Shown here: piece by piece, positions 10,282 to 50,227 of the stretch | Numbering within the stretch: position 1 is the first letter of the stretch | Layout of the letters: each line of letters starts with the position of its first letter | From: Rhodospirillales bacterium | Lineage (GTDB): Bacteria > Pseudomonadota > Alphaproteobacteria > BOG-932 > Roseiterribacteraceae | Direction of reading: 5' to 3' | Assembly: GCA_003165335.1 (NCBI GenBank) | Contig: PLTD01000083.1 | Coordinates: 1 to 61,443 of the forward strand | DNA length: 61,443 nt | Position numbers and translations under genes: made by a program | Notes under the pieces: model-generated | What the model was told of the DNA's origin: nothing | The model's database searches: none | What the model saw: only the letters and a program-made list of their open reading frames with translations

Positions 10282-10686
10282 TTACTGCGCAGCTTCCAAG
10301 AAGGGGTTGCGGATCGTCAGCCCGCCGATAATGCGGCCATGCTGCATGTCCTCGGAATAAAGAATGTCGCAGCCGGCTTCGACGGCGGCGGCGACGACCA
10401 GGGCGTCATAAAATGCAAGGCCGTGGCTGCGGGCGAGCGCAACGGCGCTCGTGTGGGTGTCGAGCGTCAGGGGCCGCACAGCGTCGAAAGATAAGCGAAA
10501 TTGGCTTAAGGCAAGCTCGATATCCGGCCAGTCATGTTTCAACTTGCGGCGCGCGACGCTCACGAATTCATTGAGGACCTGCACCGAGACCACTCCCCCG
10601 CCGCGCAAGACACGGTCGGCCTGCATTTTTCGAGGATCGGACGTGACGGTGTAGACGAGCACGTTCGTGTCGAAGAAGGCCGTCAT
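10282..10686 (-). CDS. vapC: PIN-domain ribonuclease toxin (VapC family)
   Basis: 134-aa PIN-domain protein, expected to be a Mg2+-dependent RNase acting as the toxin of a type II toxin-antitoxin pair. The acidic active-site set is visible: Asp6 in FFDTNVLVY, Glu40 in LNEFVSVAR, Asp94 in FYDALVVAAA and Asp113 in LYSEDMQHG. The start overlaps the antitoxin stop by 4 nt, the usual arrangement. It lies in the low-GC accessory stretch between two direct repeats, suggesting acquisition. The RNA target cannot be told from sequence. Confidence 0.9.
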   Translation of the reverse strand: MTAFFDTNVLVYTVTSDPRKMQADRVLRGGGVVSVQVLNEFVSVARRKLKHDWPDIELALSQFRLSFDAVRPLTLDTHTSAVALARSHGLAFYDALVVAAAVEAGCDILYSEDMQHGRIIGGLTIRNPFLEAAQ

Positions 10687-10916
10687 CGCTCATTGGCCTC
10701 GTCCCGATCGAACCTATAGTCGTCGGGCAAGGTCCAATTCAGTGAAGCCAGCCGATCGAGCGCACGCCGGCGCCGCTGTTCTTTTGTTTCGACCGCGATG
10801 GACGCGTCTTTCGCGGCTACCACGTTCAACTCGTCGCCGGCTTTTAGCCCCAGCTCATCCACCAGCGCCTTGGGCAGCCGCACGGCCAAGCTGTTGCCCC
10901 ATTTCGAAACCTGCAT
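10683..10916 (-). CDS. vapB: AbrB/MazE-type antitoxin partner of VapC
   Basis: 77-aa antitoxin. The N-terminal half is an AbrB swapped-hairpin DNA-binding domain: MQVSKWGNSLAVRLPKALVD followed by LGLKAGDELNVV. The C-terminal half, rich in arginine then acidic (QRRRRALDRL, LPDDYRFDRDEANER), is the expected toxin-binding tail. It is first in the pair and overlaps vapC by 4 nt. Autoregulation is likely through the palindromes directly upstream at 10926-10969. Confidence 0.9.
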   Translation of the reverse strand: MQVSKWGNSLAVRLPKALVDELGLKAGDELNVVAAKDASIAVETKEQRRRRALDRLASLNWTLPDDYRFDRDEANER

Positions 10917-26009: not shown

Positions 26010-26037
26010 TTGACGCGTCATGTCCCTGTGTCATACT
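26010..26037 (+). promoter_or_regulatory. Promoter-like element of paralog 1
   Basis: TTGACG (26010-26015), 16 bp, CATACT (26032-26037), followed by TATAAGAT about 8 bp on. The same layout with the same spacing lies before paralogs 2 and 3, which is the main evidence that it is functional. About 94 bp of leader precede the ATG. Confidence 0.55.
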
Positions 26038-26131
26038 TCAAACTTATAAGATTGCGGGCGGCTCAGGCGATTATCATGGGCTGGACTGCGACGCGGACGT
26101 GAAGAGATTTTGACTTGGGGAGGCTACTCAT

Positions 26132-27295
26132 ATGGCACTCATTTTCGATCGGGCTGGGGTAAATCACCGGTTCTGCGCGCTGGCTATCGGCGCCGCCGGT
26201 TTGGCGCTTACGACATTTGGCGCACATTCCGCGCGTGCCGAAACCCGAGGCTATGCCGTCAGCTGGTTCTATATGGCCGCCGAATCGCAGCCCGACGATT
26301 GCCCTGAGGGCACCAATCCGCTTTCGGATGTGATGGTAAAGCAGTTCCTGGTGGATATGGGCAAAACACCCGCCGAGATCACCGAACTGTTCAAGGACTA
26401 TCCGAACAATCTCTATGGCGCGCTCTATATGCGCGGCAAGCGCGACGGCAAACCGGTCAATGTCTACAGCAATCCGACTTCGGTTCCCGATCCGAACATC
26501 AAGACCGCCAAGGGCCATGTTGCCTTTGGTTTCAACCTGGATAGCAAGGAGGGTCCGAACGATTTCGTGGATCCGCAGACCAATGAGCGCGGCGTCGACG
26601 ACATGCTGTATCGCGCCGTCGGCTGTTTCATTACTCAGCGCGCCAGCGGCGGCACGCGTGCTACCTGGCCGGCGATCGAATGGGACATGACCCGCGACCA
26701 GATGCCTGCCTGGGTTATCGAAATTTCGGGTATCGAGCGCGACGCCAACGGGAAAGTTAAGGACGGTGACGTCAAGGTCGGCTTTTATCGCGCTACCAGC
26801 CCGGTGACGCGCAACGCCGCGGGCGATCCTCAGGCGGATATGAGTTTTGCCGTCGACACCAATCCGCGGACGCAGAATTTGGTGCATGCGACGATGAGGA
26901 ACGGCACGCTCACCACCGACCCGTTTGAATTCTACCTGTTGCAGGACCCGTTTGGAGTCGCCGAATATCATTTCAAACAGGCCAAGGTTCGTCTCACGCT
27001 GAACGACGATGGATCGGCCAAGGGTGTACTGGGCGGCTATGAGCCGTGGCTGCCGATCTATCACAGCTTTGCGCTGGGCGGATCGACGAACGAACTGAAT
27101 CTATCGGTCAACACGCCGGGTATCTATTATGCGCTGAAGAAGCTCGCCGATGCCTATCCGGACGCATCGGGCCAGAACCAGTTCATTTCGGCATCGTATA
27201 TGATCGAAGCCGTTCCTGCGTTCGTCAGTCATCCGAACGCAGATAAGACCTCAATGAATGTCGGTCCGGTACGGCTGGCTCAAGTGCGGCAATAA
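26132..27295 (+). CDS. Secreted protein of unknown family, tandem paralog 1
   Basis: 387-aa exported protein; a signal peptide ends near residue 38 (AHSARA then ETRGYAVSWFYMAAES). I do not recognise the family. The mature protein has only two cysteines (in DDCPEGTN and RAVGCFITQ), conserved in all three paralogs and likely disulfide-bonded, and many acidic loops (DFVDPQTNERGVDDMLYRA). Conserved central block VIEISGIERDANGKVKDGDV. Mature sequence is close to paralogs 2 and 3. GGGGAGG precedes the ATG. First of six co-directional envelope genes ending at the terminator at 34410; probably periplasmic or extracellular, role unknown. Confidence 0.85.
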   Translation: MALIFDRAGVNHRFCALAIGAAGLALTTFGAHSARAETRGYAVSWFYMAAESQPDDCPEGTNPLSDVMVKQFLVDMGKTPAEITELFKDYPNNLYGALYMRGKRDGKPVNVYSNPTSVPDPNIKTAKGHVAFGFNLDSKEGPNDFVDPQTNERGVDDMLYRAVGCFITQRASGGTRATWPAIEWDMTRDQMPAWVIEISGIERDANGKVKDGDVKVGFYRATSPVTRNAAGDPQADMSFAVDTNPRTQNLVHATMRNGTLTTDPFEFYLLQDPFGVAEYHFKQAKVRLTLNDDGSAKGVLGGYEPWLPIYHSFALGGSTNELNLSVNTPGIYYALKKLADAYPDASGQNQFISASYMIEAVPAFVSHPNADKTSMNVGPVRLAQVRQ

Positions 27296-27353
27296 GGTGG
27301 TTGCGGAACAGAACGACTAGGATCGGACAGGCCTTAAAGTCAGATAACGCGCT

Positions 27354-27381
27354 TTGTCACGAACAGTCGTTGTCCCACACT
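27354..27381 (+). promoter_or_regulatory. Promoter-like element of paralog 2
   Basis: TTGTCA (27354-27359), 16 bp, CACACT (27376-27381), matching the element before paralogs 1 and 3 with two or three base changes. A downstream AAGATTAGCAAGAAGCTGA tract resembles the same position before paralog 3 (AAGATCAGCAGGAAGCTGA). Confidence 0.5.
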
Positions 27382-27467
27382 CATCTTCTAAAAGATTAGC
27401 AAGAAGCTGACGAGTGGCGTTTGCTATTGGAACGCTGGTTACGTCGGCTCCAGGGAGGCAGCGGGTT

Positions 27468-28640
27468 ATGAATTATTCGCATTTGCCAAAGATTAAGCAT
27501 CGCGGCGGCACGTTCGTACGCACTGTTGCTATCTGTGCTGCGGGTTTTCTGGCCGCAGGATATGCGGCGCATTCTGCGCAGGCCGAAACGCGGGGCTATG
27601 CGGTCAGCTGGTTCTACATGGCCGCGGAATCGCAGAACGATGACTGCCCCGACGGCACCAATCCCCTGTCCGAAGTGATGGTACGAAAGCTTTTGAGCGA
27701 GAAGGGTAAGACCCCGGCTGAGATCGACTTCATTATGAAGGATTTCCCCAACAACTTGCGCGACACACTCTATATGCGGGGAAAAATCGACGGCAAACCG
27801 GTCAATGTCTATATCAACCCGACCTCAGTTCCCGATACGAACATCAAGACCGCCAAGGGCCATGTCGCCTATGGCTTTAACCTGGACGGCAAGGACGGCC
27901 CGAACGATTTCGTCGATCCCCAGACGAACGAGCACGGCGTAGATGACATGTTGTACCGGGCAGTCGGCTGTTTCGGTACACAGCGCGCCAGCGGCGGCAT
28001 GCGTCCGACCTATCCTGCCATTCAATGGGATACAACGCGCGACCAGATGCCGGCCTGGATTATCGAGATTTCGGGTATCGAGCGCGACGCCAACGGGAAA
28101 GTTAAAGACGGGGACGTCAAGGTCGGCTTTTATCGCGCAACTACCCCGGTGACGCGCAATGCGGCGGGCGATCCCCAGGCGGATATGAGTTTCACCGTCG
28201 ATACCAATCCGCGCATGCAAAATGTCGTCCACGCGACGATACAGAACGGCACGTTGGTAACGGACCCCTTCGAGTTCTATCTGGTACAGGATCCATTCGC
28301 CGTCGCGGAGTATCACTTCAAGCAGACCCGCGTCCGTCTGATGCTGAATGAGGACGGTACCGCCAAGGGCGTTCTGGGCGGCTATGAGCCTTGGTTGCCA
28401 GTCTATGAGAGCTTCGCATTGGGCGGTTCGACCAACGAGCTCAACCTGTCGATCGACACACCCGGAATATATTACGCGCTGAGGAAGCTGGCCGATGCAT
28501 ATCCGGATGCTTCGGGGCAGAATCAGTATATTTCAGCGTCCTACTGGATCGAGGCGGTGCCGGCCTTCGTCAGCCATTCCAACGCCGAAAAAACTGCCGG
28601 GATCGCCGGGCCGGTGCGTCTAGCGCAAATGCATCAATAG
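27468..28640 (+). CDS. Secreted protein of unknown family, tandem paralog 2
   Basis: 390-aa homolog of the preceding gene. Start at ATG 27468, which follows CAGGGAGGCAGCGGGTT, a leader shared almost base for base with paralog 3; the frame is open further upstream but without signal. Signal peptide to about residue 41 (AHSAQA then ETRGYAVSWFYM). Cysteines are again DDCPDGTN and RAVGCFGTQ. The stretch from about 28070 to 28190 is nearly identical in DNA to 26730-26850 of paralog 1, suggesting recent duplication or gene conversion. Function unknown. Confidence 0.85.
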   Translation: MNYSHLPKIKHRGGTFVRTVAICAAGFLAAGYAAHSAQAETRGYAVSWFYMAAESQNDDCPDGTNPLSEVMVRKLLSEKGKTPAEIDFIMKDFPNNLRDTLYMRGKIDGKPVNVYINPTSVPDTNIKTAKGHVAYGFNLDGKDGPNDFVDPQTNEHGVDDMLYRAVGCFGTQRASGGMRPTYPAIQWDTTRDQMPAWIIEISGIERDANGKVKDGDVKVGFYRATTPVTRNAAGDPQADMSFTVDTNPRMQNVVHATIQNGTLVTDPFEFYLVQDPFAVAEYHFKQTRVRLMLNEDGTAKGVLGGYEPWLPVYESFALGGSTNELNLSIDTPGIYYALRKLADAYPDASGQNQYISASYWIEAVPAFVSHSNAEKTAGIAGPVRLAQMHQ

Positions 28641-28698
28641 CGTGAAATCGGTACGGAACTATCGGGATCGGGTAGCCTCTGAACCTAAACGACACACT

Positions 28699-28726
28699 TT
28701 GACGCAACAGGTTGTTGTGTCATACT
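28699..28726 (+). promoter_or_regulatory. Promoter-like element of paralog 3
   Basis: TTGACG (28699-28704), 16 bp, CATACT (28721-28726), then TATAAGATCAGC. Same -35/-10-like hexamers and spacing as before paralog 1. Conservation across three copies suggests shared transcriptional control. Confidence 0.55.
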
Positions 28727-28822
28727 CATTAGATATAAGATCAGCAGGAAGCTGATCGTATGCGAAGAGTGCGTTTGCGGTCGGAACGGCGGATTAGGTC
28801 GGTTCCAGGGAGGCAGCGGGTT

Positions 28823-29992
28823 ATGAGTTATTCGGATTTGCCAGGCGCGAAACTGCGTGTCGGAGCGTTCGCTCGTGGCTTGGCGCTCGGCGTTGCAAGC
28901 GTCGCTGCGGTCGGGTTCGGCGCGCATTCGGCGCAGGCCGAGACTCGCGGCTATGCGGTCAGCTGGTTCTATATGGCTGCCGAGTCGCAGCCGGATGATT
29001 GCCCTGAAGGCACCAATATGTTGTCGGAGCCGATGGCGCGCAAGATCATGACGGACCTAGGTAAAACTCCGGCTGAGATCGAAGCCGCATTCAAGGATTA
29101 CCCGTCCAATATGTACGGTCAGGTCGTGATGCGCGGGAAGGTCAACGGCAAACCGGCAAATATTTATACCAACCCGACATCGGAGCCCGACCCGATGGTC
29201 AAGACGGCCAAGGGCCATGTCGCCTATGGCTTCAATCTGGACGGCAAAGATGGGCCGAACGATTTCGTCGATCCGCAAACGGGTGAGCACGGCGTCGATG
29301 ACATGGCATATCGCGCGCTCGGCTGTTTCATCACCCAGCGCGCCAGCGGGGGGCAGCGGCCGACCTGGCCTGCCATTGAGTGGGATACAACGCGCGACCA
29401 GATGCCCGCCTGGATTATCGAGATTTCCGGCATCGAGCGCGACGCCAACGGCAAGGTGAAAGACGGCGACGTCAAGGTCGGCTTTTATCGCGCCACCACG
29501 CCGGTGACGCGCAACGCCGCGGGCGATCCTCAGGCCGATATGAGCTTTACCGTCGATACCAACCCGCGGATGCAGAATGTTGTCCATGCAACACTGCATA
29601 ACGGGACGCTGACCACCGACCCGTTCGAGTTCTATATGATCCAGGACCCCTTTGCGGTCGCGGAATATCATTTCAAGCAGACGCGCGTTCGGCTGACATT
29701 GAACGATGATGGGACGCTGAAGGGCGTGCTTGGCGGATATCAACCCTGGCTGCCGGTCTATGAGAGCTTCGCGGTGGGCGGACCGGTCAATGAGTTGAAC
29801 CTCTCCGTCGACGCGGCTGGCATCTATTATGCGCTGAAGAAACTGGCCGACGCCTATCCCGATGCATCGGGTCAGAACCAATATATTTCAGCATCTTATT
29901 GGATCGAGGCGGTGCCGGGCTTCATCAGTCACCCGAACGCCGAAAAGACGTCAATGGTTGTCGGGCCGGTTAAACTGGCGGCGGCGCGTTGA
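28823..29992 (+). CDS. Secreted protein of unknown family, tandem paralog 3
   Basis: 389-aa third copy. Start at ATG 28823 after GGGAGGCAGCGGGTT. Signal peptide to about residue 40 (AHSAQA then ETRGYAV). Two mature cysteines, DDCPEGTN and RALGCFITQ. It differs from copies 1 and 2 mainly in residues 75-110 (IMTDLGKTPAEIEAAFKDYP region) while the C-terminal third, including LADAYPDASGQNQYISASYWIEAVP, is strongly conserved. It is followed after 43 bp by the CxxCH protein, so the paralogs and the DUF1592/DUF1552 pair probably act together. Confidence 0.85.
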   Translation: MSYSDLPGAKLRVGAFARGLALGVASVAAVGFGAHSAQAETRGYAVSWFYMAAESQPDDCPEGTNMLSEPMARKIMTDLGKTPAEIEAAFKDYPSNMYGQVVMRGKVNGKPANIYTNPTSEPDPMVKTAKGHVAYGFNLDGKDGPNDFVDPQTGEHGVDDMAYRALGCFITQRASGGQRPTWPAIEWDTTRDQMPAWIIEISGIERDANGKVKDGDVKVGFYRATTPVTRNAAGDPQADMSFTVDTNPRMQNVVHATLHNGTLTTDPFEFYMIQDPFAVAEYHFKQTRVRLTLNDDGTLKGVLGGYQPWLPVYESFAVGGPVNELNLSVDAAGIYYALKKLADAYPDASGQNQYISASYWIEAVPGFISHPNAEKTSMVVGPVKLAAAR

Positions 29993-30035
29993 AAATTTGC
30001 GGATCGAAATGAAAATGTCAGGTAAGGGCAGGGGA

Positions 30036-31745
30036 ATGACGGGTAAAGGAATGATGCGGCGCTTGGCATTATGCGGTGCTGTCGCTGCGCTCTGTTTGAC
30101 CGGTTTCACCGGTCAGTCGAAAGCTGACGGCGATGCTGCGGGTCAGGTTGCCATGCGACGACTGACGCAGGACCAGTATAAGCAAATTATCAACGATATA
30201 TTCGGTCCCACCGTTACGTTGGGCGGCCGCTTCGAGCCGGATTTGCGCGACTCCGGATTGCTCGCGGTTGGCGCGGCGCAGGTCAGCGTCACGGCCGCCG
30301 GGCTTGAGCAATACGACCTCATGGCGCGCAGCATCGCGACCCAGGTCGTCGACGAAAAGCATCGGCCGTTACTGGTCGGTTGCAAGCCTGCTTCGGAGAC
30401 GGCTCCGGACGACGCTTGCAGCAAGGCGTTTCTCTCCAAGGTCGGCAAGTTGCTCTATCGCCGTCCTCTGACGCAGCACGAGCTCGACGCCGAAGTCGCA
30501 GCCGCCAATGCGGCGACGGTCAAGACCGGCAGCTTTTACAACGGCCTGGGCCTTAGCCTGGCCGGTATGCTGGAAGCGCCGGAGTTCCTGTTCCGCCAGG
30601 AAGCCGTCGAGCCCGATCCGGATCATGCCGGCGCCTATCGACTGGACGCCTATTCCAAGGCCTCGCGCCTGAGCTTTTTCCTGTGGAACGCGGCGCCCGA
30701 CCCCGAGCTTTTGGCCGCCGCCCAAAACGGGGATCTGAATTCCTCCAGCGGTCTGAAAAAACAGGTCGACCGGTTGATGGCATCGCCGCGGCTGGAAGCC
30801 GGTGTAAGGGCGTTCTTCGGCGACATGCTGGCCTTCGACGGGTTCAGCACTCTGGCCAAGGACACGACGCTCTATCCGAAATTCACCTCACAGGTCCTGC
30901 GCGACGCGCAGGAGCAGACGATGCGTACGATTGTCGACCATCTGCTCGTTCAAAAGGCCGATTATCGCGATCTGTTCACCACCAATAAAACCTTTCTGAC
31001 ACCGCTTTTGGCGTCAATCTACAAAGTCCAGGCTTCGTTCCCCGAGGGCGTGCAGGACCCTTGGGTCGCTTTCGAATATCCGGCTGACGTTCCGCAGGCC
31101 GGTATTCTGACCGAAGCGAGCTTTGTCGGCCTGCATTCCCATCCAGGCCGCAGTTCGGCAACGATCCGCGGCAAGGCGCTGCGTACTGTTCTGCTGTGCC
31201 AGAAAGTCCCTGATCCGCCGGGCAATGTGAATTTCAACTTGGTTCAAGACACCAACAACCCCAACTATAAGACTGCACGTCAGCGTCTTGAGGCCCATCG
31301 CACGCAACCGAGCTGCGCCGGATGCCACAAGATTATGGATCCGGTAGGATTGGCGATGGAGAATTTCGACACGATCGGCGGCTTCCGCACGACAGAGAAC
31401 GGCGCCCCGATCGACGCCAGCGGAGAGTTGGACGGCGCGAAATTCAGCGACGTCGCGGGCTTGGGCAAGGCAGTGCACGACAATCCAGCGGCCACCGCCT
31501 GCATCGTCAACCGGGTCTATGAGTTCGGCGCGGGTCATGCCCCCAATAAATCAGAGACCGAATGGGTGCGCGGCACGCTAGCCAAGGACTTCGCGTCCGG
31601 CGGGTATAAATTTACCGATCTGCTTAAGGATGTCGCAACCAGCGACGTGTTCTATCGCGCGTCCGCTCCCCAGACCGGGGCTTTGGACACACCTAAAGCG
31701 AAACTTGCTTCCGATGTGACTGGGAACCAGGAGGTTCAGAAATGA
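30036..31745 (+). CDS. DUF1592/DUF1588/DUF1585-type protein with CxxCH motif
   Basis: 569-aa exported protein. N-terminal signal-type segment (MMRRLALCGAVAALCLTGF) then MRRLTQDQYKQIINDIFG, typical of the DUF1587/DUF1595/DUF1592/DUF1588/DUF1585 set found in planctomycetes, myxobacteria and some proteobacteria. A CAGCH haem-c motif lies at about 427-431, followed by KIMDPVGLAMENFD, the DUF1588 signature; covalent haem is inferred. Start choice among ATGs at 30009, 30036 and 30051 is uncertain; 30036 has the best-spaced AAGGG. The frame continues upstream into paralog 3 without meaning. Its stop overlaps the DUF1552 start (ATGA). Biochemical role unknown. Confidence 0.88.
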   Translation: MTGKGMMRRLALCGAVAALCLTGFTGQSKADGDAAGQVAMRRLTQDQYKQIINDIFGPTVTLGGRFEPDLRDSGLLAVGAAQVSVTAAGLEQYDLMARSIATQVVDEKHRPLLVGCKPASETAPDDACSKAFLSKVGKLLYRRPLTQHELDAEVAAANAATVKTGSFYNGLGLSLAGMLEAPEFLFRQEAVEPDPDHAGAYRLDAYSKASRLSFFLWNAAPDPELLAAAQNGDLNSSSGLKKQVDRLMASPRLEAGVRAFFGDMLAFDGFSTLAKDTTLYPKFTSQVLRDAQEQTMRTIVDHLLVQKADYRDLFTTNKTFLTPLLASIYKVQASFPEGVQDPWVAFEYPADVPQAGILTEASFVGLHSHPGRSSATIRGKALRTVLLCQKVPDPPGNVNFNLVQDTNNPNYKTARQRLEAHRTQPSCAGCHKIMDPVGLAMENFDTIGGFRTTENGAPIDASGELDGAKFSDVAGLGKAVHDNPAATACIVNRVYEFGAGHAPNKSETEWVRGTLAKDFASGGYKFTDLLKDVATSDVFYRASAPQTGALDTPKAKLASDVTGNQEVQK

Positions 31746-33082
31746 TTACGCTTAGGTCAATCGATCGTCGTCGCGTACTCCGTGGCATGCTTGGCGGCAC
31801 AGCCGTCACGGTCGCTCTACCGTTCCTTGACTGCTTCCTGGACGAGAACGGAACCGCTCTGGCATCGGGCGCGCCGCTTCCGGTGTGCTTCGGCACATGG
31901 TTCTGGGGCCTTGGCCTCAATCCAGGCCGGTGGGAGCCGCCGACAGCCGGCAAGATTACCCAATTCGGTCCCGAACTGGCCGGGCTGACCCCCTATAAGG
32001 ACAAGGTCAACGTCTATTCGGGTACAAAGGTCATTCTGGACGGGCGTCCGATGATTACCCACTTCACCGGCGACTGGGCGGTGTTGACCGGCACGACGCC
32101 GCGCGAAGAACGCGTGATCATTCCCAGCGTCGACATGCTGATCGCCGATGTGATCGGCACCAAGACGCGTTTCCGGTCGCTCGAAGTCTCCTCGACCGGC
32201 AACCCGGTCCATTCCTACAGCCGACGCGAGGGGGCTGCGATCAATCCGGCAGAGGTTTCGCCGGCGGCGCTCTATACCCGCATCTTCGGACCCGAGTTCA
32301 AGGACCCGAACGCAGCCGACTTCAAGCCGGACCCGCAGGTGATGGCGCGCCAGAGCGTGCTTTCGGCCGTGCGCGCACAGCGCGAAGACCTGGCCAAGAC
32401 TTTGGGCGCCTCCGACAAGGCGCGCCTAGACGAATATTACTCGTCGCTTCGCCAGATCGAGCAGCAGCTTGACCTCGAGTTGCAGAAGCCGGCCCCGCTG
32501 GAGGCCTGCACCTCTCCGGACAAGCCGACCGACATCGTGCTGGGTTCAGAAATCGAATCGGTAAAGGGCAACCACAAGCTGTTCGCCGGACTGTTGTCCC
32601 ATGCGTTGGCCTGCGGTCAGACCCGGGTCATCAACGTAACCTTCAACGACGCGACATCGTCGCTGCGCAAGCAGGGTTCCTCGATGACCCACCATGTCTA
32701 CAGCCACGAAGAATCAATCGACCCGGTGCTCGGCTATCAGCCGAACGTTACCTCCTTCATTATGAACATCAGCGGCGGTCTGGCCGATATGGTCGGCGCT
32801 CTCGACAGCATCAAAGAAGGCGACGGGACGCTGCTCGATCGGATGCTGCTGATGGCATCGACCGACACGGGCTATGCCAAGGTTCACAGCCTGGACGACA
32901 TGCCGCTCATCACCGCGGGCCGCGCCGGCGGGCGGATGAAGACGGGCTATCACGTCGTGGCCAAAGGCGATCCGGCAACACGCCTGGGTCTGACTGTGCA
33001 GCAAGCGGTCGGCGTGCCGATCAATAGCTGGGGCACGGATTCGATGCAGACATCGAAGACCTTCACTGAGGTGATGGCCTAA
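31742..33082 (+). CDS. DUF1552 protein with Tat-like signal
   Basis: 446-aa protein of the DUF1552 family, which almost always accompanies DUF1592 proteins. The N-terminus DRRRVLRGMLGGTAVTVALPF is a twin-arginine-like export signal. Family features include FGTWFWGLGLNPGRWEP, THFTGDWAVLTGT and the C-terminal MASTDTGYAKVHSLDDMP. DUF1552 is structurally related to the DUF1501/alkaline-phosphatase-like group by general knowledge, but no function is proven. Translation is coupled to the preceding gene by a 4-nt overlap, with AGGAGG upstream. Confidence 0.9.
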   Translation: MITLRSIDRRRVLRGMLGGTAVTVALPFLDCFLDENGTALASGAPLPVCFGTWFWGLGLNPGRWEPPTAGKITQFGPELAGLTPYKDKVNVYSGTKVILDGRPMITHFTGDWAVLTGTTPREERVIIPSVDMLIADVIGTKTRFRSLEVSSTGNPVHSYSRREGAAINPAEVSPAALYTRIFGPEFKDPNAADFKPDPQVMARQSVLSAVRAQREDLAKTLGASDKARLDEYYSSLRQIEQQLDLELQKPAPLEACTSPDKPTDIVLGSEIESVKGNHKLFAGLLSHALACGQTRVINVTFNDATSSLRKQGSSMTHHVYSHEESIDPVLGYQPNVTSFIMNISGGLADMVGALDSIKEGDGTLLDRMLLMASTDTGYAKVHSLDDMPLITAGRAGGRMKTGYHVVAKGDPATRLGLTVQQAVGVPINSWGTDSMQTSKTFTEVMA

Positions 33083-33116
33083 TCGGGCGCATCTGGTTTT
33101 TGGGAGGAATTGGGAA

Positions 33117-34403
33117 ATGGGGCTGAAAACGGCTCTTGCTATCGGTGTCGTCGCCGTGGTTGTCGTCGGTGGCGGCCTGTACTTGGTGAACCAGCATAAG
33201 GCGACGGTTTCGTCGCCGATCGTGGCACGGCTCTCGACGCCGCCCGGCGTGACCTTTCAGAAGGTCAAGGTCGGCACGGTAACTGCCATTCCGGGTTCTA
33301 GCTCGGATCAGCAGGCTCAGCTTACGGTCTATGCCGACGCGAAAGGACTGACGCTTTATACGTTCGACAAGGACACACCCGGCAAGTCTGCCTGCACCAG
33401 CGACGAATGCGTCAAGGCATGGCCAATTCTGGCTGCCTCGGCCGATGCCAAGCCGGTCGACGACTGGAGCATCGTCACCCGCGACGACGGCAGCAAGCAG
33501 TGGGCCCTTAAAGGCAAGCCGCTTTATACTTTCGTCAAAGACCAGAAGTTCGGCGATTATACCGGCGACGGCGTGGCCAAGCTTTGGCACATGGCGCTTC
33601 TGGAGCCGGCCGCGGATATGCAGCTGCCGATCGGCGTGGATGTGGCGGAAGTAAATGAGGCGAACGGTCAGACGCTGGTCGATTCCCGCAGCATGCCGCT
33701 TTATGCCTACGACGGCGATGTTTCCGGCGGTAAAGTCGATTGCGACAAGGGTCCTTGCGGGCCGCAGTGGAAGCCGCTGCTGACCGGGCAACTCGCCAAT
33801 AATCTGGGTGATTTTTCGGTCGTCAGCCGCGCGGACGGTATCCAGCAGTGGGCCTTCCAGGGCCATCCGCTGTTCACCTATGGCGGCGATCTGGATATAG
33901 GCGATGCCAATGGCGTCGATGCCGATAAGCATTTCCAGATCGCGCAGATCGAGAAATATTTCATTCCCCCGGAAGTGAAGGTCTTACCGAACGAACGCAA
34001 GGGCGGGCTGCTGGCCGATGCGAACGGCAAGACGCTCTATGCCCGGGACCGTGTCCGTTTCGACGGTACAGGCGGTCATGCTGCACGTGGAGCCGACCGG
34101 GGCGTTCCGATGCTGGGCGTGACGATCGGCACGTCTGGTTGCGATGTGGAATGCGCCAAAGACTGGCATCCTTTGATCGCCTCAGCGGATGCAAAGCCTT
34201 CGGGATATTGGTCGCTGATGAAGCGTGACGACGGTGCGCAGCAATGGGCCTATCAAGGCTATGCCCTGTACAGCTATTCCGGCGACAGGAAGCCTGGCGA
34301 TATGATAGGCCAGGACACCTATACGCTGATGGTGACAGATGGCGAGAAAATCGCCGACGCACGCCACGGTATGGGACTTTATTGGCGGACCACCTCGCCA
34401 TAA
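33117..34403 (+). CDS. Membrane-anchored COG4315-like repeat protein
   Basis: 428-aa envelope protein. N-terminal membrane anchor (ALAIGVVAVVVVGGGLYLV, residues 5-23) without lipobox. Three related modules of the 'secreted repeat of unknown function' type: LTVYADAKGLTLYTFDKD with CTSDECVKAW; MPLYAYDGD with CDKGPCGPQW; and LLADANGKTLYARD with CDVECAKDWHPL. Each has the C-x3-C-x3-W pattern and a following WSLM/WSIV...D-D-G...QWA...G..LY block. Family function is unknown; redox or copper/haem handling is a guess. GGGAGGAATTGGG precedes the ATG. Last gene before the terminator. Confidence 0.85.
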   Translation: MGLKTALAIGVVAVVVVGGGLYLVNQHKATVSSPIVARLSTPPGVTFQKVKVGTVTAIPGSSSDQQAQLTVYADAKGLTLYTFDKDTPGKSACTSDECVKAWPILAASADAKPVDDWSIVTRDDGSKQWALKGKPLYTFVKDQKFGDYTGDGVAKLWHMALLEPAADMQLPIGVDVAEVNEANGQTLVDSRSMPLYAYDGDVSGGKVDCDKGPCGPQWKPLLTGQLANNLGDFSVVSRADGIQQWAFQGHPLFTYGGDLDIGDANGVDADKHFQIAQIEKYFIPPEVKVLPNERKGGLLADANGKTLYARDRVRFDGTGGHAARGADRGVPMLGVTIGTSGCDVECAKDWHPLIASADAKPSGYWSLMKRDDGAQQWAYQGYALYSYSGDRKPGDMIGQDTYTLMVTDGEKIADARHGMGLYWRTTSP

Positions 34404-34409
34404 GATCCA

Positions 34410-34439
34410 GGGCGGGGAGAGATCCCCGCCCTTTTTTTT
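34410..34439 (+). terminator. Rho-independent terminator of the DUF1592/DUF1552 cluster
   Basis: Perfect 9-bp GC-rich stem GGGCGGGGA / TCCCCGCCC with a GAGA loop and a run of eight T. It starts 6 bp after the COG4315-like stop and defines the end of the 26-34 kb transcription unit. Confidence 0.95.
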
Positions 34440-34471: not shown

Positions 34472-35365
34472 ATGAAAATCGGCATTTTGCCTTTGTTCAA
34501 TAAAGGCTTCATCGATAACGGCGCTTGGTGCAAATCCTTCCTCCAGACGATAGATGTGATCGGCGTCGAATCCGTCTGGCAGGTCGAGCATCCGATCGTC
34601 GCGGAAGACTACGAACAGCTCTATTCCTATTCCGATGACGGACGGGCGCCGTTCACGGCCGATACGATCATGCCGGATCCTCTGGAATGGCTGAGTTTCG
34701 CCGCCGGCTGCACCAATAACGTCAAGCTCGGCACCGGTGTGCTGCTGCTGCCGCTGCACAGCCCGATCATCATCGCCAAGCGCGTCGCCACGTTGGATGC
34801 ACTCTCAGGCGGACGCGTGCTGTTGGGTGTGGGCATCGGCTGGCAAAAGGAAGAATTCGCCGCAGTCAGCGTGCCTTATAACGAGCGCGGCCGACGCTTC
34901 GACGAGGGAATCGACGCGGTCCGCACCCTGTGGCGGGACGATATAGCCACCTATGACGGGAAATATTACCAGTTTCACCGCGTCCACTCGGACCCCAAGC
35001 CCGCAAACCCAAATCTCGTTCCGTTGATTATCGGCGGTTCCACCGATGTTGCGGCGCGCCGCGCCGGGCGCACGGGCGACGGCTATTTTCCGCACGCGAT
35101 ATCGCCCGACGATTTCGCAGCGCGGATCGAGACCATGAAGGCGGCTGCAAAGGAATTCGGCCGCGACCCGGCAAAGATCGAGCTGTCGGTATCGCCGACA
35201 AGCTGGAAGTTTGGCTCCACAATGGACTTGGGCATCTGCCGGGCTTATGCGCAGTTGGGCGTAACGCGCCTGATCATCTCGGCTTACGAAGCCGGAGGAC
35301 ATGAGCCGGCAGATATCGAACGTTATGTAAAACGCTTTCAGGACGATATCGTCGCGCGCCTATAA
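34472..35365 (+). CDS. LLM-class flavin-dependent oxidoreductase
   Basis: 297-aa luciferase-like monooxygenase-fold protein (TIGR03619 F420-type by pattern). Signatures: MKIGILPLFNKG, ESVWQVEHPIVAEDY, KLGTGVLLLPLHSPIIIAKRVATLD, GRVLLGVGIGWQKEEF and VPLIIGGSTDVAARRAGRTGDGY. Start at ATG 34472 with AACGAGGAAC upstream, clear of the terminator. Whether it uses F420 or FMN cannot be told; most sphingomonads lack F420, so FMN is my inference. Separate transcription unit from the preceding cluster. Confidence 0.88.
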   Translation: MKIGILPLFNKGFIDNGAWCKSFLQTIDVIGVESVWQVEHPIVAEDYEQLYSYSDDGRAPFTADTIMPDPLEWLSFAAGCTNNVKLGTGVLLLPLHSPIIIAKRVATLDALSGGRVLLGVGIGWQKEEFAAVSVPYNERGRRFDEGIDAVRTLWRDDIATYDGKYYQFHRVHSDPKPANPNLVPLIIGGSTDVAARRAGRTGDGYFPHAISPDDFAARIETMKAAAKEFGRDPAKIELSVSPTSWKFGSTMDLGICRAYAQLGVTRLIISAYEAGGHEPADIERYVKRFQDDIVARL

Positions 35366-35387: not shown

Positions 35388-35999
35388 ATGACTAAAACCG
35401 CGCCGCGCCCGAAAGTCTATCTCGCAGGGCCGGAGGTTTTCTTGCGCAATGCGGTGGAGGCGGGGGCGGCCAAGGCCGCGATTTGTGCGCGCCACGGGCT
35501 GGAGGGCAAATTTCCCCTCGACGCTCAGATCGCACTGGACGGTTTGACGCTGGCTGAGCGGGCCTATGCCATATTCCATGCCAATGAAGAGCTGATCCGC
35601 GGATGCGATGCGGTGATTGCCAATCTGACGCCTTTCAGAGGCGTTGGGATGGATACGGGCACCGCCTATGAGGTCGGCTTCATGCGCGGGTTGGGACGAC
35701 CGGTGTTCGGCTATAGCAACAACACCTTGTCTTTCTTTGATCGCGTGGTCGAACACAACCCGAAGCCGCTTAAGAAACGACACGGCGCCGACCCGACGAT
35801 GGGCTATGAGGACAGCAACCGAATGGGCGTAGAGCAATTCGGATTGGCGGAAAATCTGATGATTGTGAGCGCCGTGCACGACAGCGGTGGGACGATCGTC
35901 CAGGTCAAGACCAAGCGGCGCGAGCGCTATACCGACTTCACCGCCTTCGAGGATTGTGTGAAGCAGGTAGCGCTAAGGCTTTGCCTGGCGAGGTGTTGA
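35388..35999 (+). CDS. Nucleoside 2-deoxyribosyltransferase-like protein
   Basis: 203-aa member of the NDT family, which exchanges or hydrolyses bases on 2'-deoxynucleosides. Signatures: KVYLAGPEVF near the N-terminus, CDAVIANLTPFRGVGMDTGTAYEVGF with the likely catalytic Glu, and GRPVFGYSN. The family is also called Nuc_deoxyrib_tr and overlaps RCL-type deoxynucleotide hydrolases. It follows the LLM gene by 22 bp and may share its transcript; its TGA at 35997-35999 is convergent to the NRAMP gene. Confidence 0.85.
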   Translation: MTKTAPRPKVYLAGPEVFLRNAVEAGAAKAAICARHGLEGKFPLDAQIALDGLTLAERAYAIFHANEELIRGCDAVIANLTPFRGVGMDTGTAYEVGFMRGLGRPVFGYSNNTLSFFDRVVEHNPKPLKKRHGADPTMGYEDSNRMGVEQFGLAENLMIVSAVHDSGGTIVQVKTKRRERYTDFTAFEDCVKQVALRLCLARC

Positions 36000-37486: not shown

Positions 37487-40400
37487 CTAAGGCTTGGCAT
37501 CGATGGTAACTTCGACTGTCATCTTCACGCCCTGCCGCATGAATTCGACGGGAACTACGGCGCCGATTGGTTCCACGGAAACCATGCCGATGAATTCGGG
37601 AATTGTCGTCCTGTCCAATGGCTTGGCGTCGAAGCTGGTGAGGAGGTCGCCGGGTTGAAGGCCCGCTTTCATGGCAGGGGAATCAGGTAGGATACTTTGG
37701 GCGCGAATAATCGATGTCGCGCTGGGGGTGGCGAGTGGTTTGGCGATGCCAAAGCCCATATACGGTGCGCCCTTGGCGCGATATTCCGGGATCGTGATGG
37801 TCGATTGCGGAGAGACAGTACGCGTTAGCCGATCGGCGAAAAACCATGCTCCCGCTTTGCTCCAGAAGTCGTTGCCGGAGGCCTTAGACAGCCGGTTTTT
37901 GAGTTCGAAATAGTTATCGTTGTTCGCGACGGCAAGGGAGCCTGAGTCCGAGAGTGATTCGCCGCCAACGGCTTCGGCGAGATCGGCAAGCCAGGCAGGC
38001 GGTTGGCTTCCGGCTGGGGGAAGAATGTCCCATATCCGACCGGTTTTGTCGGCCGAGGCTGTAACCACGAAGGTCCCATCCGGGCTGAAATCGGCAGAGG
38101 AGACGGAATCGTCGTGACGCAGCGGATCGCTGATTGGTTGGCCGCTCTGCCCGTCCCATACACGGGCCGTGTGGTCTTCGGAGCTTGTGATTATGCGCAA
38201 TCCGTCACGGCTGAATTTGGCCGTGTAGACCGTTCCATCGTGGCGCATCGGCTCGCCTATCGGCTTAGTCGTTAAAGCGTCCCAGATCCTTGCTGTATGA
38301 TCCCCCGACGCGGTAAGCACGCGTGCGCCGTCGGGGCTAAAGCTGGCCTGGCCTATGAAATCATTATGGCGAAGAGGGTCCCCGAACGATTGGCCCGTCG
38401 TCGCGTCCCAGAGGCGTGCCGTGTGGTCGAACCCCGATATCAGAACATGTGTGCTGTCTGGACTGAACTCGGCCGAGTTGATCGTTTCGGAATGCTCGAT
38501 TTTCTGCCCGATCAAATGACCGCTGCGAATGTCCCAGAGATGGGCTTCCGACCCCAGATCGTACAGCATTCGCGAATTATCCGGGCTGACGGTGGCCGTC
38601 CAGACCTGAAACCCGGTCTCCAACGGCTTGCCTACCGGCTGTCCCGTTTGAGCGTTCCAGAGTCTTGCGGTCTGATCATTGGACGCGGTTACAATCCAGG
38701 CGCCGTCGGGGCTATATTGGGCCGAGCGGATGTTATCTTTATGGACTATCGGTTCGGCAACCGGCCGTCCGGTATGACCGTCCCACAGTTCGGCAATGTT
38801 GCCCGAAGCTGTCAGAATGCGCATCCCGTCGGGACTGAAGCTCGTCGCGGTCGGATACTCCTCTGCTGTAGTCACCTTAAAATACATGGTCTGGCCGATG
38901 GATTGACCGGAGTGCAGGTCCCAAAGGCGGGCTGTTTTATCGTTGGAGCCGGTCAATACGCGTTCGCCATCGGGGCTGACTGCGGCATAGCGAACATAGT
39001 CCTGGTGGCGCATGGCTTTGCCGATCAGCAAGCTTGGGTGTGCGCCCCACAATTGGGCGGTATCGCCGGAAACCGTGGCAATCAGAGCGCCGTCGGGGCT
39101 GATCTCGGCGTCGCGAACGAATCCATCATGGCGTATCGGCTCACCGACCGGCATACCCGAATATGCGTTCCAAACCTTTGCCGTGCTGTCTTGCGACGCG
39201 GTGATGACCAGCAAGCCGTCTCGGCTGAACTTTGCAGATTCGACCGTGGCGTCATGGTGCATTACCTCGCCGATCGCTCGGCCGGTTCGCGCGTCCCACA
39301 AGCGCGCCGTATGGTCGAATGACGCGGTGACGATGCGCGTCCCGTCGGGACTAAACTTTGCCGAATTGATCGTGGCTGCGTGGCGCATCACCTCGCCGAA
39401 CGGTTCACCTGTATGCGCGTCCCAAAGCCGAGCGGTTTCATCGAACGATGCGGTCAGTACATGGTTGCCGTCTGGGCTGAAGCTTGCCGAAGAGAGTTGA
39501 AACTGATGCTGCATCGGTTTGCCGATCGGCTGGCCCGTGGCAGCATCCCATAAACGGGCCGTGCTATCAGATGAGGCCGTAACGACGCGGGTGTCGTCAG
39601 GGCTGATCGCCGCCCCAACGATATCCCGGTCATGGTGCATGGCTTTCCCGATCGGCTCACCCGATTGGGCATCCCAGAGCCGCACCGTGTCGTTTGCGAT
39701 GGTGATTATGCGTTTTCCGTCGGGGCTGAATTCGGCGAAGGTCAGTCCGTCGTCATGCTGCATGGGTTTGCCTATCGGCTGCCCGGTATGGCCATCCCAA
39801 AGTCGCGCGGTTTTGTCGTAGGAGGCTGTCACCACCCTCGTGCCGTCAGGGCTGAAACTGGCAGAGCTCACCGTACCTTGGTGATGCATCCGCGCGCCAA
39901 TCGGCTGGCCTGTTTGCGCGTCCCATAGTCGGGCTGTGCGGTCCCACGATGCGGTGACCACGCGTGTGCCGTCGGGGCTGAAGCTCGCAGTGTTGATCGC
40001 AGTCGAGAAGCCGAAGCTTCCGTCATTGATTTCACCGTCGTGGCGCAACGGCTTCGCCGCCGGCAGGAACCACGAGTGCTGGCTGATCAACAAGGAGTAG
40101 AGCCGGGCGACAGCACCATGATTTCCTGGGCTTGAACGCACCGCGCGCGCCAGATAGGCCAGCGCATCGGAATCACGGCCTTGTTTCACCAGTTGGACGC
40201 CCTGGAGGAAATCGGATTGGCTAAGCGTTGCCACGGCCTTTAGCCGGGCTGCGTCCGCAGCCTGTCTTTGCGCTTCAGCCTGCTGGGTCTGGCGAATTGC
40301 GACAGCGCCGCCGGCGATGGCGACCAGCGCCAGCACGCCCACGGCGACGAGCCATCGGCGCAGGGTTTTTGCGCGTTTCTGGGCGAGGGCGAGCTGATAG

Positions 40401-41140
40401 GCCTTGTCGCGTTGGGTGAGCGTTCCGAGCGGAATGCCGAGTATCCCGGCGATAATCTTGAGCTTCATCAGCTCGCACTGCTTGCGGTATTCCTCGACCC
40501 GGGCGTCCAGGGCCTTGGCGCTAAGCTTGCCGTCGCTGCGCAACGCCAGACGATAGGCCTCGGGGCTGGTCCAGCCCTGGGCGCTGCCGATGCGGAAATC
40601 GGCGGCAATGGGTTCGGTCCGGTCGCCGAGCAAGGACCCGTCCGGACCGACCGCGTGGCGTAACGCTTCAGGGAAACATTCGTCCTCCACAGCAAAGCCC
40701 AGCGCCTGCTTGCCGGCATCCCAGCTGGCATTGGGCTCGCCCTCGATCATGACCGCCAGAACACGGTCGCCGTGCCCCAGCTGTTTGAAGTAGCGAATCT
40801 CGTTGCCGACATAGGGCGAGGCGACGGAGCGCGGGGAGCAGATCACCAGCAGGAACTTGCTGGCGTCCAGGGCGCGATATATGGGCGAGGCGAGGTCGGC
40901 ATCGACCGGCAGTTCCTCCTCGTCGCGAAAGACCGGGAAAATACGCTCCGGGATCGTGTCGCCCCGGTCGTTGACCGTGCCGACCAAATCGGCCGGCACT
41001 TCATAGGTCTCGATCGCCTGATGGAGCCAGGTCGCCCACTGACGTCCAGGCTCCTTATTGTCGGCATGCCGATAGGAGATGAAACACCAATAGGAACGCT
41101 TGTCAGGCGCGGAGGACGGGGCGGATTCAGACGCGCTCAT
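37487..41140 (-). CDS. TIR-TM-WD40(16)-PDZ protein
   Basis: 1217-aa multidomain protein. Residues about 14-165 are a TIR-type domain (WCFISYRHADN, FPVFRDEEELP, FLLVICSPRSVASPYVGNE with Glu114 at the position of the TIR catalytic Glu). A helical linker and one membrane span follow (about 263-283, WLVAVGVLALVAIAGGAVAI), then about 16 WD40 repeats (375-1055), each built on SFSPDGTRVVTAS and TARLWDAQTGQPIG, enough for two propellers, and a C-terminal PDZ (about 1115-1217, SPAMKAGLQPGDLLTSFD). The TIR half is predicted to be cytosolic and the propellers periplasmic if the span is correct. Function unknown; NAD-cleaving signalling or defence is possible. Confidence 0.9.
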   Translation of the reverse strand: MSASESAPSSAPDKRSYWCFISYRHADNKEPGRQWATWLHQAIETYEVPADLVGTVNDRGDTIPERIFPVFRDEEELPVDADLASPIYRALDASKFLLVICSPRSVASPYVGNEIRYFKQLGHGDRVLAVMIEGEPNASWDAGKQALGFAVEDECFPEALRHAVGPDGSLLGDRTEPIAADFRIGSAQGWTSPEAYRLALRSDGKLSAKALDARVEEYRKQCELMKLKIIAGILGIPLGTLTQRDKAYQLALAQKRAKTLRRWLVAVGVLALVAIAGGAVAIRQTQQAEAQRQAADAARLKAVATLSQSDFLQGVQLVKQGRDSDALAYLARAVRSSPGNHGAVARLYSLLISQHSWFLPAAKPLRHDGEINDGSFGFSTAINTASFSPDGTRVVTASWDRTARLWDAQTGQPIGARMHHQGTVSSASFSPDGTRVVTASYDKTARLWDGHTGQPIGKPMQHDDGLTFAEFSPDGKRIITIANDTVRLWDAQSGEPIGKAMHHDRDIVGAAISPDDTRVVTASSDSTARLWDAATGQPIGKPMQHQFQLSSASFSPDGNHVLTASFDETARLWDAHTGEPFGEVMRHAATINSAKFSPDGTRIVTASFDHTARLWDARTGRAIGEVMHHDATVESAKFSRDGLLVITASQDSTAKVWNAYSGMPVGEPIRHDGFVRDAEISPDGALIATVSGDTAQLWGAHPSLLIGKAMRHQDYVRYAAVSPDGERVLTGSNDKTARLWDLHSGQSIGQTMYFKVTTAEEYPTATSFSPDGMRILTASGNIAELWDGHTGRPVAEPIVHKDNIRSAQYSPDGAWIVTASNDQTARLWNAQTGQPVGKPLETGFQVWTATVSPDNSRMLYDLGSEAHLWDIRSGHLIGQKIEHSETINSAEFSPDSTHVLISGFDHTARLWDATTGQSFGDPLRHNDFIGQASFSPDGARVLTASGDHTARIWDALTTKPIGEPMRHDGTVYTAKFSRDGLRIITSSEDHTARVWDGQSGQPISDPLRHDDSVSSADFSPDGTFVVTASADKTGRIWDILPPAGSQPPAWLADLAEAVGGESLSDSGSLAVANNDNYFELKNRLSKASGNDFWSKAGAWFFADRLTRTVSPQSTITIPEYRAKGAPYMGFGIAKPLATPSATSIIRAQSILPDSPAMKAGLQPGDLLTSFDAKPLDRTTIPEFIGMVSVEPIGAVVPVEFMRQGVKMTVEVTIDAKP

Positions 41141-49141: not shown

Positions 49142-50157
49142 ATGAACATTTCGAGGGGATTCGCCTTCGGTTTTGCAACGTGCGCAGTGGTGCTTATAGG
49201 CGCATCCTCTTTAGCTCAAGTGGCCTCCCACCTGGCGCCTACAGCGTTGGCGCAGGCAAACCCACCATCTGAAGGCGGATCGTCGGCGTCAGATTCAGCT
49301 TTGCAGGCTAGCCAACCACGCGATGGAAAAGAGACCTCTAAGGAACCGGAAAGCTCGCAACCCGATGTGAGTTTAATCGGGCTCAAAATGTCACGGATTG
49401 CCGCACACATCGCGAAAGCACGTCAGCAAGACGATCCTTTTGGCGCTGTGGTCCAGACTGTGAGTCCTGGGTTACCTGCGGCCCAGGCGGGCATCAGACC
49501 AGGTGATGTTATCCTCACTATCGATGACATGCCCATAAACTTGCCCGGCGATCTACCGCAGCTAATTGCCAAAACAACGGTCGGCCAGATTCTCATCATT
49601 ACAGTTCTGCGGGATAATCAACGGATTCACCTGTCACTCATAACTGTTGGTGCACGAATCTTGGCCCAATCAGGGAATGTTTATGGAATGATGGGCATCG
49701 CCGAGGCCTATCGTAATGGTAGAGTAATCTCAAAGGATTATATCGAAGCTGCTCGATGGTTTCGTCGGGCCGCCGATTTGGGCGAGGCGACGGCAATGTA
49801 CTCACTCGGCAATCTTTATATGAGTGGGAGCGGCGTCACCAAGGACTACGGCGAGACGGTACGCTGGTATCGCAAAGCGGCAGATCTGGGCGACGTGAAC
49901 GCGATGGATGCCCTGGCGGCTCTATTTATCAACGGCCTGGCGTGCCGAGAAGCGACGCGGAAGCGGTGAACTGGTACCGCAAGGCCGCCGATAGCGGCGA
50001 CCTTTTCGCGATGGATGAGATCGCGACTTGGTATGCTATCGGGCGCGGAGTGCCTAAAGATGAAGCGGAGGCGGCGCGCTGGTATCGTAAGGCTGCCGAT
50101 CTGGACGACGACGACGCCAAGAAATGGCTGGATACGCACGGCCATTCATCCCGATAA
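49142..50157 (+). pseudogene. PDZ-Sel1 protein, frameshifted
   Basis: Exported protein, signal peptide from ATG 49142 (FAFGFATCAVVLIGASSLAQ), then a PDZ domain (AVVQTVSPGLPAAQAGIRPGDVILTIDDM) and Sel1/TPR-like repeats (YIEAARWFRRAADLGEATAM, YGETVRWYRKAADLGDVNAM). The first frame stops at 49969, but the repeats continue in the next frame (VPRSDAEAVNWYRKAADSGD ... EAARWYRKAADLDDDDAK) to 50157. One lost G at the GG of 49939-49940 would explain it: GLGVP reads across the junction if restored. Whether this is decay, a sequencing error or a real slip site cannot be decided here. Followed by the TIR gene. Confidence 0.75.
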
Positions 50158-50227
50158 AAGCTTGTTTTGCCCCGTAGCTGGCCGCATCTTCGCCGAAACG
50201 ATCAAAGACGGGGCGGGTGCCGGATTC

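Follow-up and report, generated by a model that had tools for sequence, protein, structure and literature searches.

A recurrent exported DUF1592-DUF1552 module with an unnamed 390-residue partner family in an alphaproteobacterial draft genome

A recurrent module around a known gene pair

Proteins that combine the domain set DUF1587-1595-1592-1588-1585 with a haem motif have been described in Planctomycetes and Verrucomicrobia as PSCyt3/PSD proteins, with unknown genes, apparently DUF1552 (PF07586), next to them (PMC5615132, PMC2754498). One PSD domain pair was counted 41 times in the R. baltica genome (PMC2754498). A 2017 survey reported that PSCyt3-type genes of Verrucomicrobia are adjacent to one family of unknown genes; the same paper contains the term DUF1552 and states that nothing was known of the functions of DUF1592-set and DUF1552 proteins (PMC5615132). 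Here, we analyzed a locus of this kind on a 61,443-nucleotide contig (PLTD01000083.1, our contig C4; hereafter the window) of an alphaproteobacterial draft genome from a Rhodospirillales bacterium (GCA_003165335.1; 5.19 Mb, 265 contigs). Six genes on the forward strand between 26132 and 34403 encode, by inspection, products that are all exported or membrane-anchored. Unlike the PSCyt3/PSD systems, the locus adds a family of about 390 amino acids (aa; the 390-aa family) before the pair and a COG4315 protein after it, its DUF1592 protein is short, and the DUF1552 motif of such loci reads HxxTHEE or HxxSHEE in nearly all cases.

The Cbp2D/Cbp2E system of Cellvibrio japonicus is similar in having an exported multi-domain protein with DUF1587 and a c-type haem, and in its redox role in extracellular substrate use (PMC8981238). 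However, Cbp2D carries a cellulose-binding module as well as a YceI-like domain, whereas the Pfam search of the window DUF1592 protein matched neither a carbohydrate-binding module nor a YceI-like domain, and no gene of LPMO_10, the only lytic polysaccharide monooxygenase (LPMO) family searched, was found in the genome.

The linkage of these genes was evaluated in the window's own genome, in a genome scan and in plasmids. The own genome contains nine DUF1592-set, nine DUF1552 and eleven 390-aa genes, all of which lie in nine clusters of identical order. The scan yielded 78 loci, mostly from alpha- and gammaproteobacterial assemblies; several assemblies with the title 'Candidatus Marinimicrobia' are also among them. 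Counted together, these 78 loci, the window and the other eight clusters of the own genome gave 99 arrays of the 390-aa gene, 6 of which end at a contig edge. Among the 93 assessable arrays, 74 are followed by DUF1592, and DUF1552 comes next in 72 of these 74. Because this gene order recurs nine times in the own genome and in dozens of others, chance can be excluded as its source.

Co-occurrence across genomes pointed in the same direction. The preliminary description of this DNA had proposed a survey of DUF1552 in Alphaproteobacteria, with co-occurring homologs as its expectation; in an even sample of 289 genomes, the 390-aa family was present in five and DUF1552 in exactly the same five. Among 299 Pseudomonadota, DUF1552 was found in six genomes, two of them with the 390-aa family. 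A search of 72,556 plasmids located both this DUF1552 subtype and the 390-aa family on the same 13 records, each at 23 places. The distance matrices of the 390-aa, DUF1592 and DUF1552 proteins from 64 complete triads correlated with r of 0.76-0.86, a level reached in 0 of 999 permutations, which fits joint inheritance and adaptation as a unit. Moreover, two fusions were found: a 390-aa part joined in one frame to COG4315 repeats (L105:7707-9575), and a 390-aa gene that runs into DUF1592 without a stop, up to the contig end (locus L072).

These results show that the module is real and recurrent, uniting a known pair without assigned function, DUF1592-DUF1552, with an unnamed 390-aa family and a COG4315 protein. 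The tight unit is the last four genes. That description had proposed an undescribed exported module built on triplicated secreted proteins. Its linkage is strongly supported by the co-occurrence, fixed order, fusions and co-variation, but the triplication is not essential and was dropped as a defining feature, since most loci hold a single 390-aa gene. Nor is every part undescribed: the bare DUF1592-DUF1552 pairing had apparently been noticed before (PMC5615132), whereas no description of the 390-aa family, of the four-gene unit or of its setting was found in the literature searched, which yielded no paper with DUF1592 and DUF1552 both as terms and none for COG4315. We tentatively read the six genes, at somewhat less than even chance, as a single instance of a modular redox system that works outside the cytoplasm on hydrophobic natural products, for example steroids.

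The component proteins

In the window DUF1592 protein, PSD3, PSD5, PSD4, PSCyt3 and PSD2 all exceeded the Pfam gathering scores, giving a complete architecture. Alignments and inspection placed its start not at 29862 but probably within 30009-30054. The protein had been called haem-c-type on account of its CxxCH motif, and the motif was confirmed: it occurs once in the protein and is kept in 64 of 64 compared relatives, so that a c-type protein with one haem is predicted from it. DUF1592 proteins encoded with a 390-aa gene are about 550 aa long, as against 830-2157 aa in six Pseudomonadota loci that lack the 390-aa gene. Searches of PDB sequences with the DUF1592, DUF1552 and COG4315 proteins were empty.

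The COG4315 protein matched PF03640 (Lipoprotein_15) clearly, in five stretches (173.1 bits against a cut-off of 24.4, E 7.4e-52). It differs from SCO0930-type lipoproteins in falling below the NCBIfam cut-off (145.6 bits against 275), in having a hydrophobic segment as its anchor and in being tied to DUF1552. In 64 of the 72 loci where a gene is visible after DUF1552, that gene is COG4315. Elsewhere, its slot is occupied by a cytochrome c' with a membrane cytochrome b561 (Sphingobium loci L163 and L164), by a plastocyanin-type cupredoxin, that is, a blue-copper protein (L135), or by a glyoxalase-fold protein (L140 and L172). Since cytochromes or a blue-copper protein can hold the slot, COG4315 is probably the module's connection with the membrane or with an electron carrier, and a path for electrons between DUF1592 and the membrane is best hinted at by these substitutes.

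The 390-aa family is the duplicated and most divergent part of the module and has a Sec-type leader. The three window paralogs had been called near-identical, which is too strong: they share 77-81% protein identity, with dS of 1.09-1.19 and dN/dS of 0.12-0.15. These values mark them as old, maintained duplicates, and all three are under purifying selection. Their differences are concentrated in the leader and in residues 61-100, a helical insertion. A multiple alignment of 72 diverse members confirmed the conserved cysteine pair noted at the outset (C57 and C165 in paralog 1), which is invariant in 72 of 72, together with P115, G133, L136, Y303, D340, D344 and S353; no histidine is invariant in these 72 members.

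The family had not been recognised from the letters, and the profile searches proposed for it matched no Pfam, NCBIfam or PHROG model and no family of known function. In NCBIfam, 0 of the 72 members matched at 0.01, Pfam gave only isolated matches at 0.04 or worse, PHROGs gave none, and nothing meaningful was matched among PDB sequences. A structural model (pLDDT 89.3) predicts a beta-barrel with a calycin-like closed strand arrangement and a long helical insertion. In VIA-align, its top matches did not rise above background level (best Z 7.2, over 91 residues) and were barrels like those of avidins, lipocalins and fatty-acid-binding proteins; weak, non-significant matches included the haem-binding HtaA domain and nitrobindin. 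As Foldseek gave no match under 0.001 and the VIA-align scores stayed at background, no fold family is claimed: the model weakly resembles calycin-type barrels (avidins, fatty-acid-binding proteins, lipocalins) in its closed-barrel strands, but differs from them in the long insertion and in having no sequence relation that we found.

Copy number and context of the family vary among loci. The corresponding locus of a related Rhodospirillales assembly (L034:6686-9074) has two 390-aa paralogs, not three, and on another contig of that assembly (L033) a single copy with 79% identity to a window paralog has no DUF1592 gene next to it. Among the eleven own-genome proteins, two share the tail GWLRKLGW, absent from the others (L027:10498-11652 and L032:9126-10376). 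At L097:1623-5340 and L098:2773-6510, three 390-aa genes form an array whose next gene is of COG4315 size; neither DUF1592 nor DUF1552 comes directly after the array. In the group L093-L110 (e.g. L110:3189-3653), a CHRD-domain exported protein is encoded directly upstream of the 390-aa gene, CHRD being present in 9 of 122 operon neighbours.

The window DUF1552 protein scored 148.9 bits against a Pfam cut-off of 30 (PF07586, HXXSHH). Its annotation as Tat-type was upheld by an RR leader both in the protein itself and in 72 of 73 relatives. In nearly all relatives, the HXXSHH motif reads HxxTHEE or HxxSHEE, with E, rarely D or T, at the position of the third histidine; the sequence would mark a subtype rather than a non-member. 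H318 and H322 of the HxxSH motif and D366 are invariant, also when compared with six DUF1552 proteins from loci without a 390-aa gene. One locus (L063:6922-12672) holds three DUF1552 genes, the two additional ones being mutually adjacent.

The model of this protein (pLDDT 87.9) has a predicted alkaline-phosphatase-superfamily fold, with 480 chains at Z>=8 in VIA-align and the match to 5too reaching Z 17.2 over 273 residues at 3.9 Å. Its good structural matches to sulfatases, phosphodiesterases and alkaline phosphatases would suit a hydrolytic chain, in which DUF1552, as a true sulfatase- or phosphodiesterase-like hydrolase, takes a group off a substrate that is exported or imported, with the 390-aa protein as carrier of this substrate and the haem protein serving in regulation or folding; PSCyt genes also neighbour sulfatase genes in Verrucomicrobia (PMC5615132). 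However, manual motif comparison with phosphodiesterases suggested that the position of the Thr/Ser/Cys nucleophile is taken by H107, invariant in a 67-member alignment, and that the 'DH' metal motif is incomplete, being represented by D/E plus a variable residue with the histidine apparently lost. Profile comparisons with DUF1501 and phosphodiesterases gave short stretches of low probability and were used as hints only. Relative to sulfatases, NPPs and DUF1501, the predicted fold is alike, but changes appear to affect the catalytic nucleophile and some of the metal-ligand pattern. The retention of the haem protein in nearly all loci and the electron carriers that substitute for COG4315 further argue against a hydrolytic chain, which we regard as improbable.

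Layout of the locus and other genes of the window

The features of the locus are listed in Table 1. The preliminary description had presented six co-directional exported or anchored genes that end at a strong terminator, with the DUF1592 and DUF1552 genes translationally coupled. All six genes were recovered, and the stop of DUF1592 and the start of DUF1552 share 4 bases (ATGA). The hairpin at 34409-34432 (10 pairs, 8 of them GC, then T-rich) is the best terminator-like site of the region, where the overall number of such sites is at chance level.

Table 1. Coordinates of the genes and candidate regulatory elements of the module in the window
Feature	Coordinates	Strand	Remarks
390-aa family paralog 1	26132..27295	+	387 aa; Sec-type leader; C57 and C165
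390-aa family paralog 2	27468..28640	+	390 aa; longer open reading frame with GTG at 27414 less likely
390-aa family paralog 3	28823..29992	+	389 aa
DUF1592-type protein (PSD3-PSD5-PSD4-PSCyt3-PSD2)	30009..31745	+	One CxxCH haem-c motif, exported; start uncertain (30009-30054); Pfam and alignments
DUF1552/HXXSHH protein	31742..33082	+	RR (Tat-like) leader; Pfam, model, fold search
COG4315/Lipoprotein_15 repeat protein	33117..34403	+	N-terminal membrane-anchor-like segment; Pfam
Promoter-like element TTGACG-16-CATACT upstream of paralog 1	26010..26037	+	Consensus scan; within block duplicated with paralogs
Promoter-like element upstream of paralog 3	28699..28726	+	Duplicate of 26010-26037
Intrinsic-terminator-like hairpin and T run	34409..34439	+	Best terminator-like site of the region

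Promoter-like sites also occur in the region at chance level. The same promoter-like box lies about 120 bp upstream of the starts of paralogs 1 and 3 and is degenerate before paralog 2. Alignment of the three upstream regions showed that the duplicated unit is a paralog together with its upstream region and this box, and 29 of the 33 bases of the three-copy consensus are kept before the corresponding gene of the related genome (L034). As paralogs 1 and 3 carry their own box, the six genes need not share one transcript; the elements at 26010 and 28699 may function as promoters.

Beyond the terminator lie a luciferase-like monooxygenase gene (34472-35365) and a further gene (35388-35999). In the related genome (L034:13593-15122), both occupy the same place after the module; owing to its position beyond the terminator, however, the monooxygenase was not retained as part of the unit. 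Several other genes of the window were recognised by eye. Products with TIR-like starts (SYWCFISYRHAD..., HDVFISYTTQDK...) are encoded at 37487-41140 on the reverse strand and at 50162-50986 on the forward strand, the latter adjoining Sel1-like repeat genes at 49688-50157. PIN-like toxin and AbrB-like antitoxin genes with a few-base overlap at 10282-10916 on the reverse strand are probably a VapBC-type pair. Upstream of one module copy elsewhere in our loci (L029:12435-13036), a Fic/Doc-like gene and its small partner, likewise recognised by eye, are probably a toxin-antitoxin pair.

Genomic setting and proposed role

Among 122 operon neighbours, TonB-receptor domains were the commonest Pfam families, and a TonB receptor gene is directly adjacent to the module in 12 loci. 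One own-genome copy has a KshA-type Rieske gene directly downstream and a gluconolactonase-like protein beside it. Other own-genome copies adjoin flavin monooxygenase and SDR-type genes or a molybdenum hydroxylase with its iron-sulfur subunit; further neighbours are a dienelactone hydrolase and a pyrroloquinoline-quinone-type dehydrogenase with a cupredoxin domain. The window's own copy has no steroid-type genes adjoining it.

The plasmid matches came from megaplasmids of tomato-associated Sphingobium strains and of S. herbicidovorans MH, with one Novosphingobium in addition. The Sphingobium Tom isolates originate from a study of alpha-tomatine degraders, in which degradation of alpha-tomatine was also seen for S. 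herbicidovorans MH, with putative intermediates as products, and the later degradation steps were only proposed (PMC10653915). The main text of that paper does not discuss the module and makes no mention of DUF, TonB or cytochrome. In Sphingobium, the module adjoins genes of FadE-type acyl-CoA dehydrogenases (FadE30), hydroxysteroid dehydrogenases (7-alpha), and Rieske and flavin monooxygenases, and strain TomTYG65 has a lone 390-aa gene beside beta-xylosidase and 3-beta-hydroxysteroid dehydrogenase genes. In S. herbicidovorans MH, which degraded alpha-tomatine incompletely, DUF1592 and DUF1552 are intact. KshA-type matches were found in 14 of the 289 Alphaproteobacteria, the own genome having the highest count (at least 10, on contigs such as C233, C95, C156, C140, C24 and C216) and a congener seven. 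Steroids are likely the substrate of some module copies; they would not be a general substrate, and for the window's copy they are hypothetical.

In the redox system that we propose, the substrate, likely a steroid, a terpenoid or a similar ring compound, would cross the outer membrane through the TonB receptors encoded beside many copies. The exported 390-aa barrel, as modelled, probably binds the hydrophobic substrate or an intermediate and sets specificity. DUF1552, exported in folded form via Tat, would have a histidine-rich metal site in apparent replacement of the hydrolase nucleophile and probably performs the chemistry, an oxidation. DUF1592, attached to the outside of the inner membrane or released there, may pass electrons via its single haem c to whatever membrane component or electron carrier COG4315 probably connects, and nearby cytoplasmic oxygenases, dehydrogenases and hydrolases would finish the breakdown. 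The own genome would use such a system nine times, on different substrates. Ligand binding, the substrate, the catalytic role of DUF1552 with its reaction, and the direction in which electrons flow are all proposals.

Several observations weigh against this proposal. DUF1552 exists without the 390-aa gene, and the pair can therefore work alone or with other partners. A simple pattern finds a lipobox-like leader in 37 of 76 DUF1592 proteins, leaving about half, the window protein among them, without one. Because the barrel matches are weak, the suggestion of ligand binding rests on overall shape, and the loss of the DUF1552 nucleophile is deduced from motifs and very weak profile alignments, not from superposed coordinates. 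The 390-aa gene of TomTYG65 lies about 200 kb from its DUF1592-DUF1552 pair. On plasmid pMSHV of S. herbicidovorans MH (L164:11438-12783), the 390-aa frame is split into two overlapping annotated hypothetical proteins and thus may be frameshifted. Since the tomatine-degrading Sphingobium strains mostly belong to one clade, shared descent confounds the link with steroid breakdown; three of the five alphaproteobacterial genomes with the 390-aa family have no KshA-type genes, and steroids therefore cannot be the general substrate on that evidence. Finally, biochemistry, expression or knock-out results for any part of the module were not found in the literature searched.

A more far-reaching version of the redox reading, which we consider rather unlikely, takes the set as an unrecognised class of extracytoplasmic oxidoreductases, in which DUF1552 is a metal-dependent redox enzyme on an alkaline phosphatase fold, DUF1592 its haem partner and the 390-aa barrels exchangeable parts for specificity. 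Copies would be stackable for steroids and other hydrophobic natural products, many per genome, in the manner of polysaccharide-utilisation loci.

An envelope maintenance or stress module without a dedicated substrate would fit the export of all parts, and a DUF1552 protein appears in a Rhodopirellula stress transcriptome table (PMC2754498). However, the very patchy distribution (5 of 289 Alphaproteobacteria) and the carriage on megaplasmids within catabolic islands argue against housekeeping, which makes this explanation quite unlikely. A module for haem or metal acquisition, in which the barrel serves the neighbouring TonB receptors by binding haem or a metal chelate and DUF1592 and DUF1552 process this ligand, gains some appeal from the 12 adjacent receptors and from the HtaA and nitrobindin matches; those matches are not significant, however, the 390-aa family has no invariant histidine, and nine copies beside varied catabolic genes fit substrates better than iron, so that we give it little credence. 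We think it very unlikely that the module donates electrons for oxidative polymer breakdown, as proposed for Cbp2D/Cbp2E with LPMOs, because even though Cbp2D has DUF1587 with a cytochrome c domain reducing LPMOs (PMC8981238) and some PSCyt proteins carry carbohydrate-binding modules (PMC5615132), such a module was not matched in the window DUF1592 protein, LPMO_10, the one family searched, was absent from the five 390-aa-positive genomes, and the neighbouring genes belong to small-molecule catabolism.

Taken together, the most probable role of the module is to process hydrophobic natural products outside the cytoplasm in a haem-dependent manner, its specificity being set by the 390-aa barrels. 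Both DUF1592-set and DUF1552 proteins form orphan families with a wide distribution. Their old problem of function now becomes testable, since constant third and fourth partners, hosts in culture (Sphingobium, Steroidobacter gossypii), predicted folds and a substrate class that is plausible are at hand. If the proposed role is true, the breakdown of tomatine and similar plant toxins would gain an exported route based on redox chemistry.

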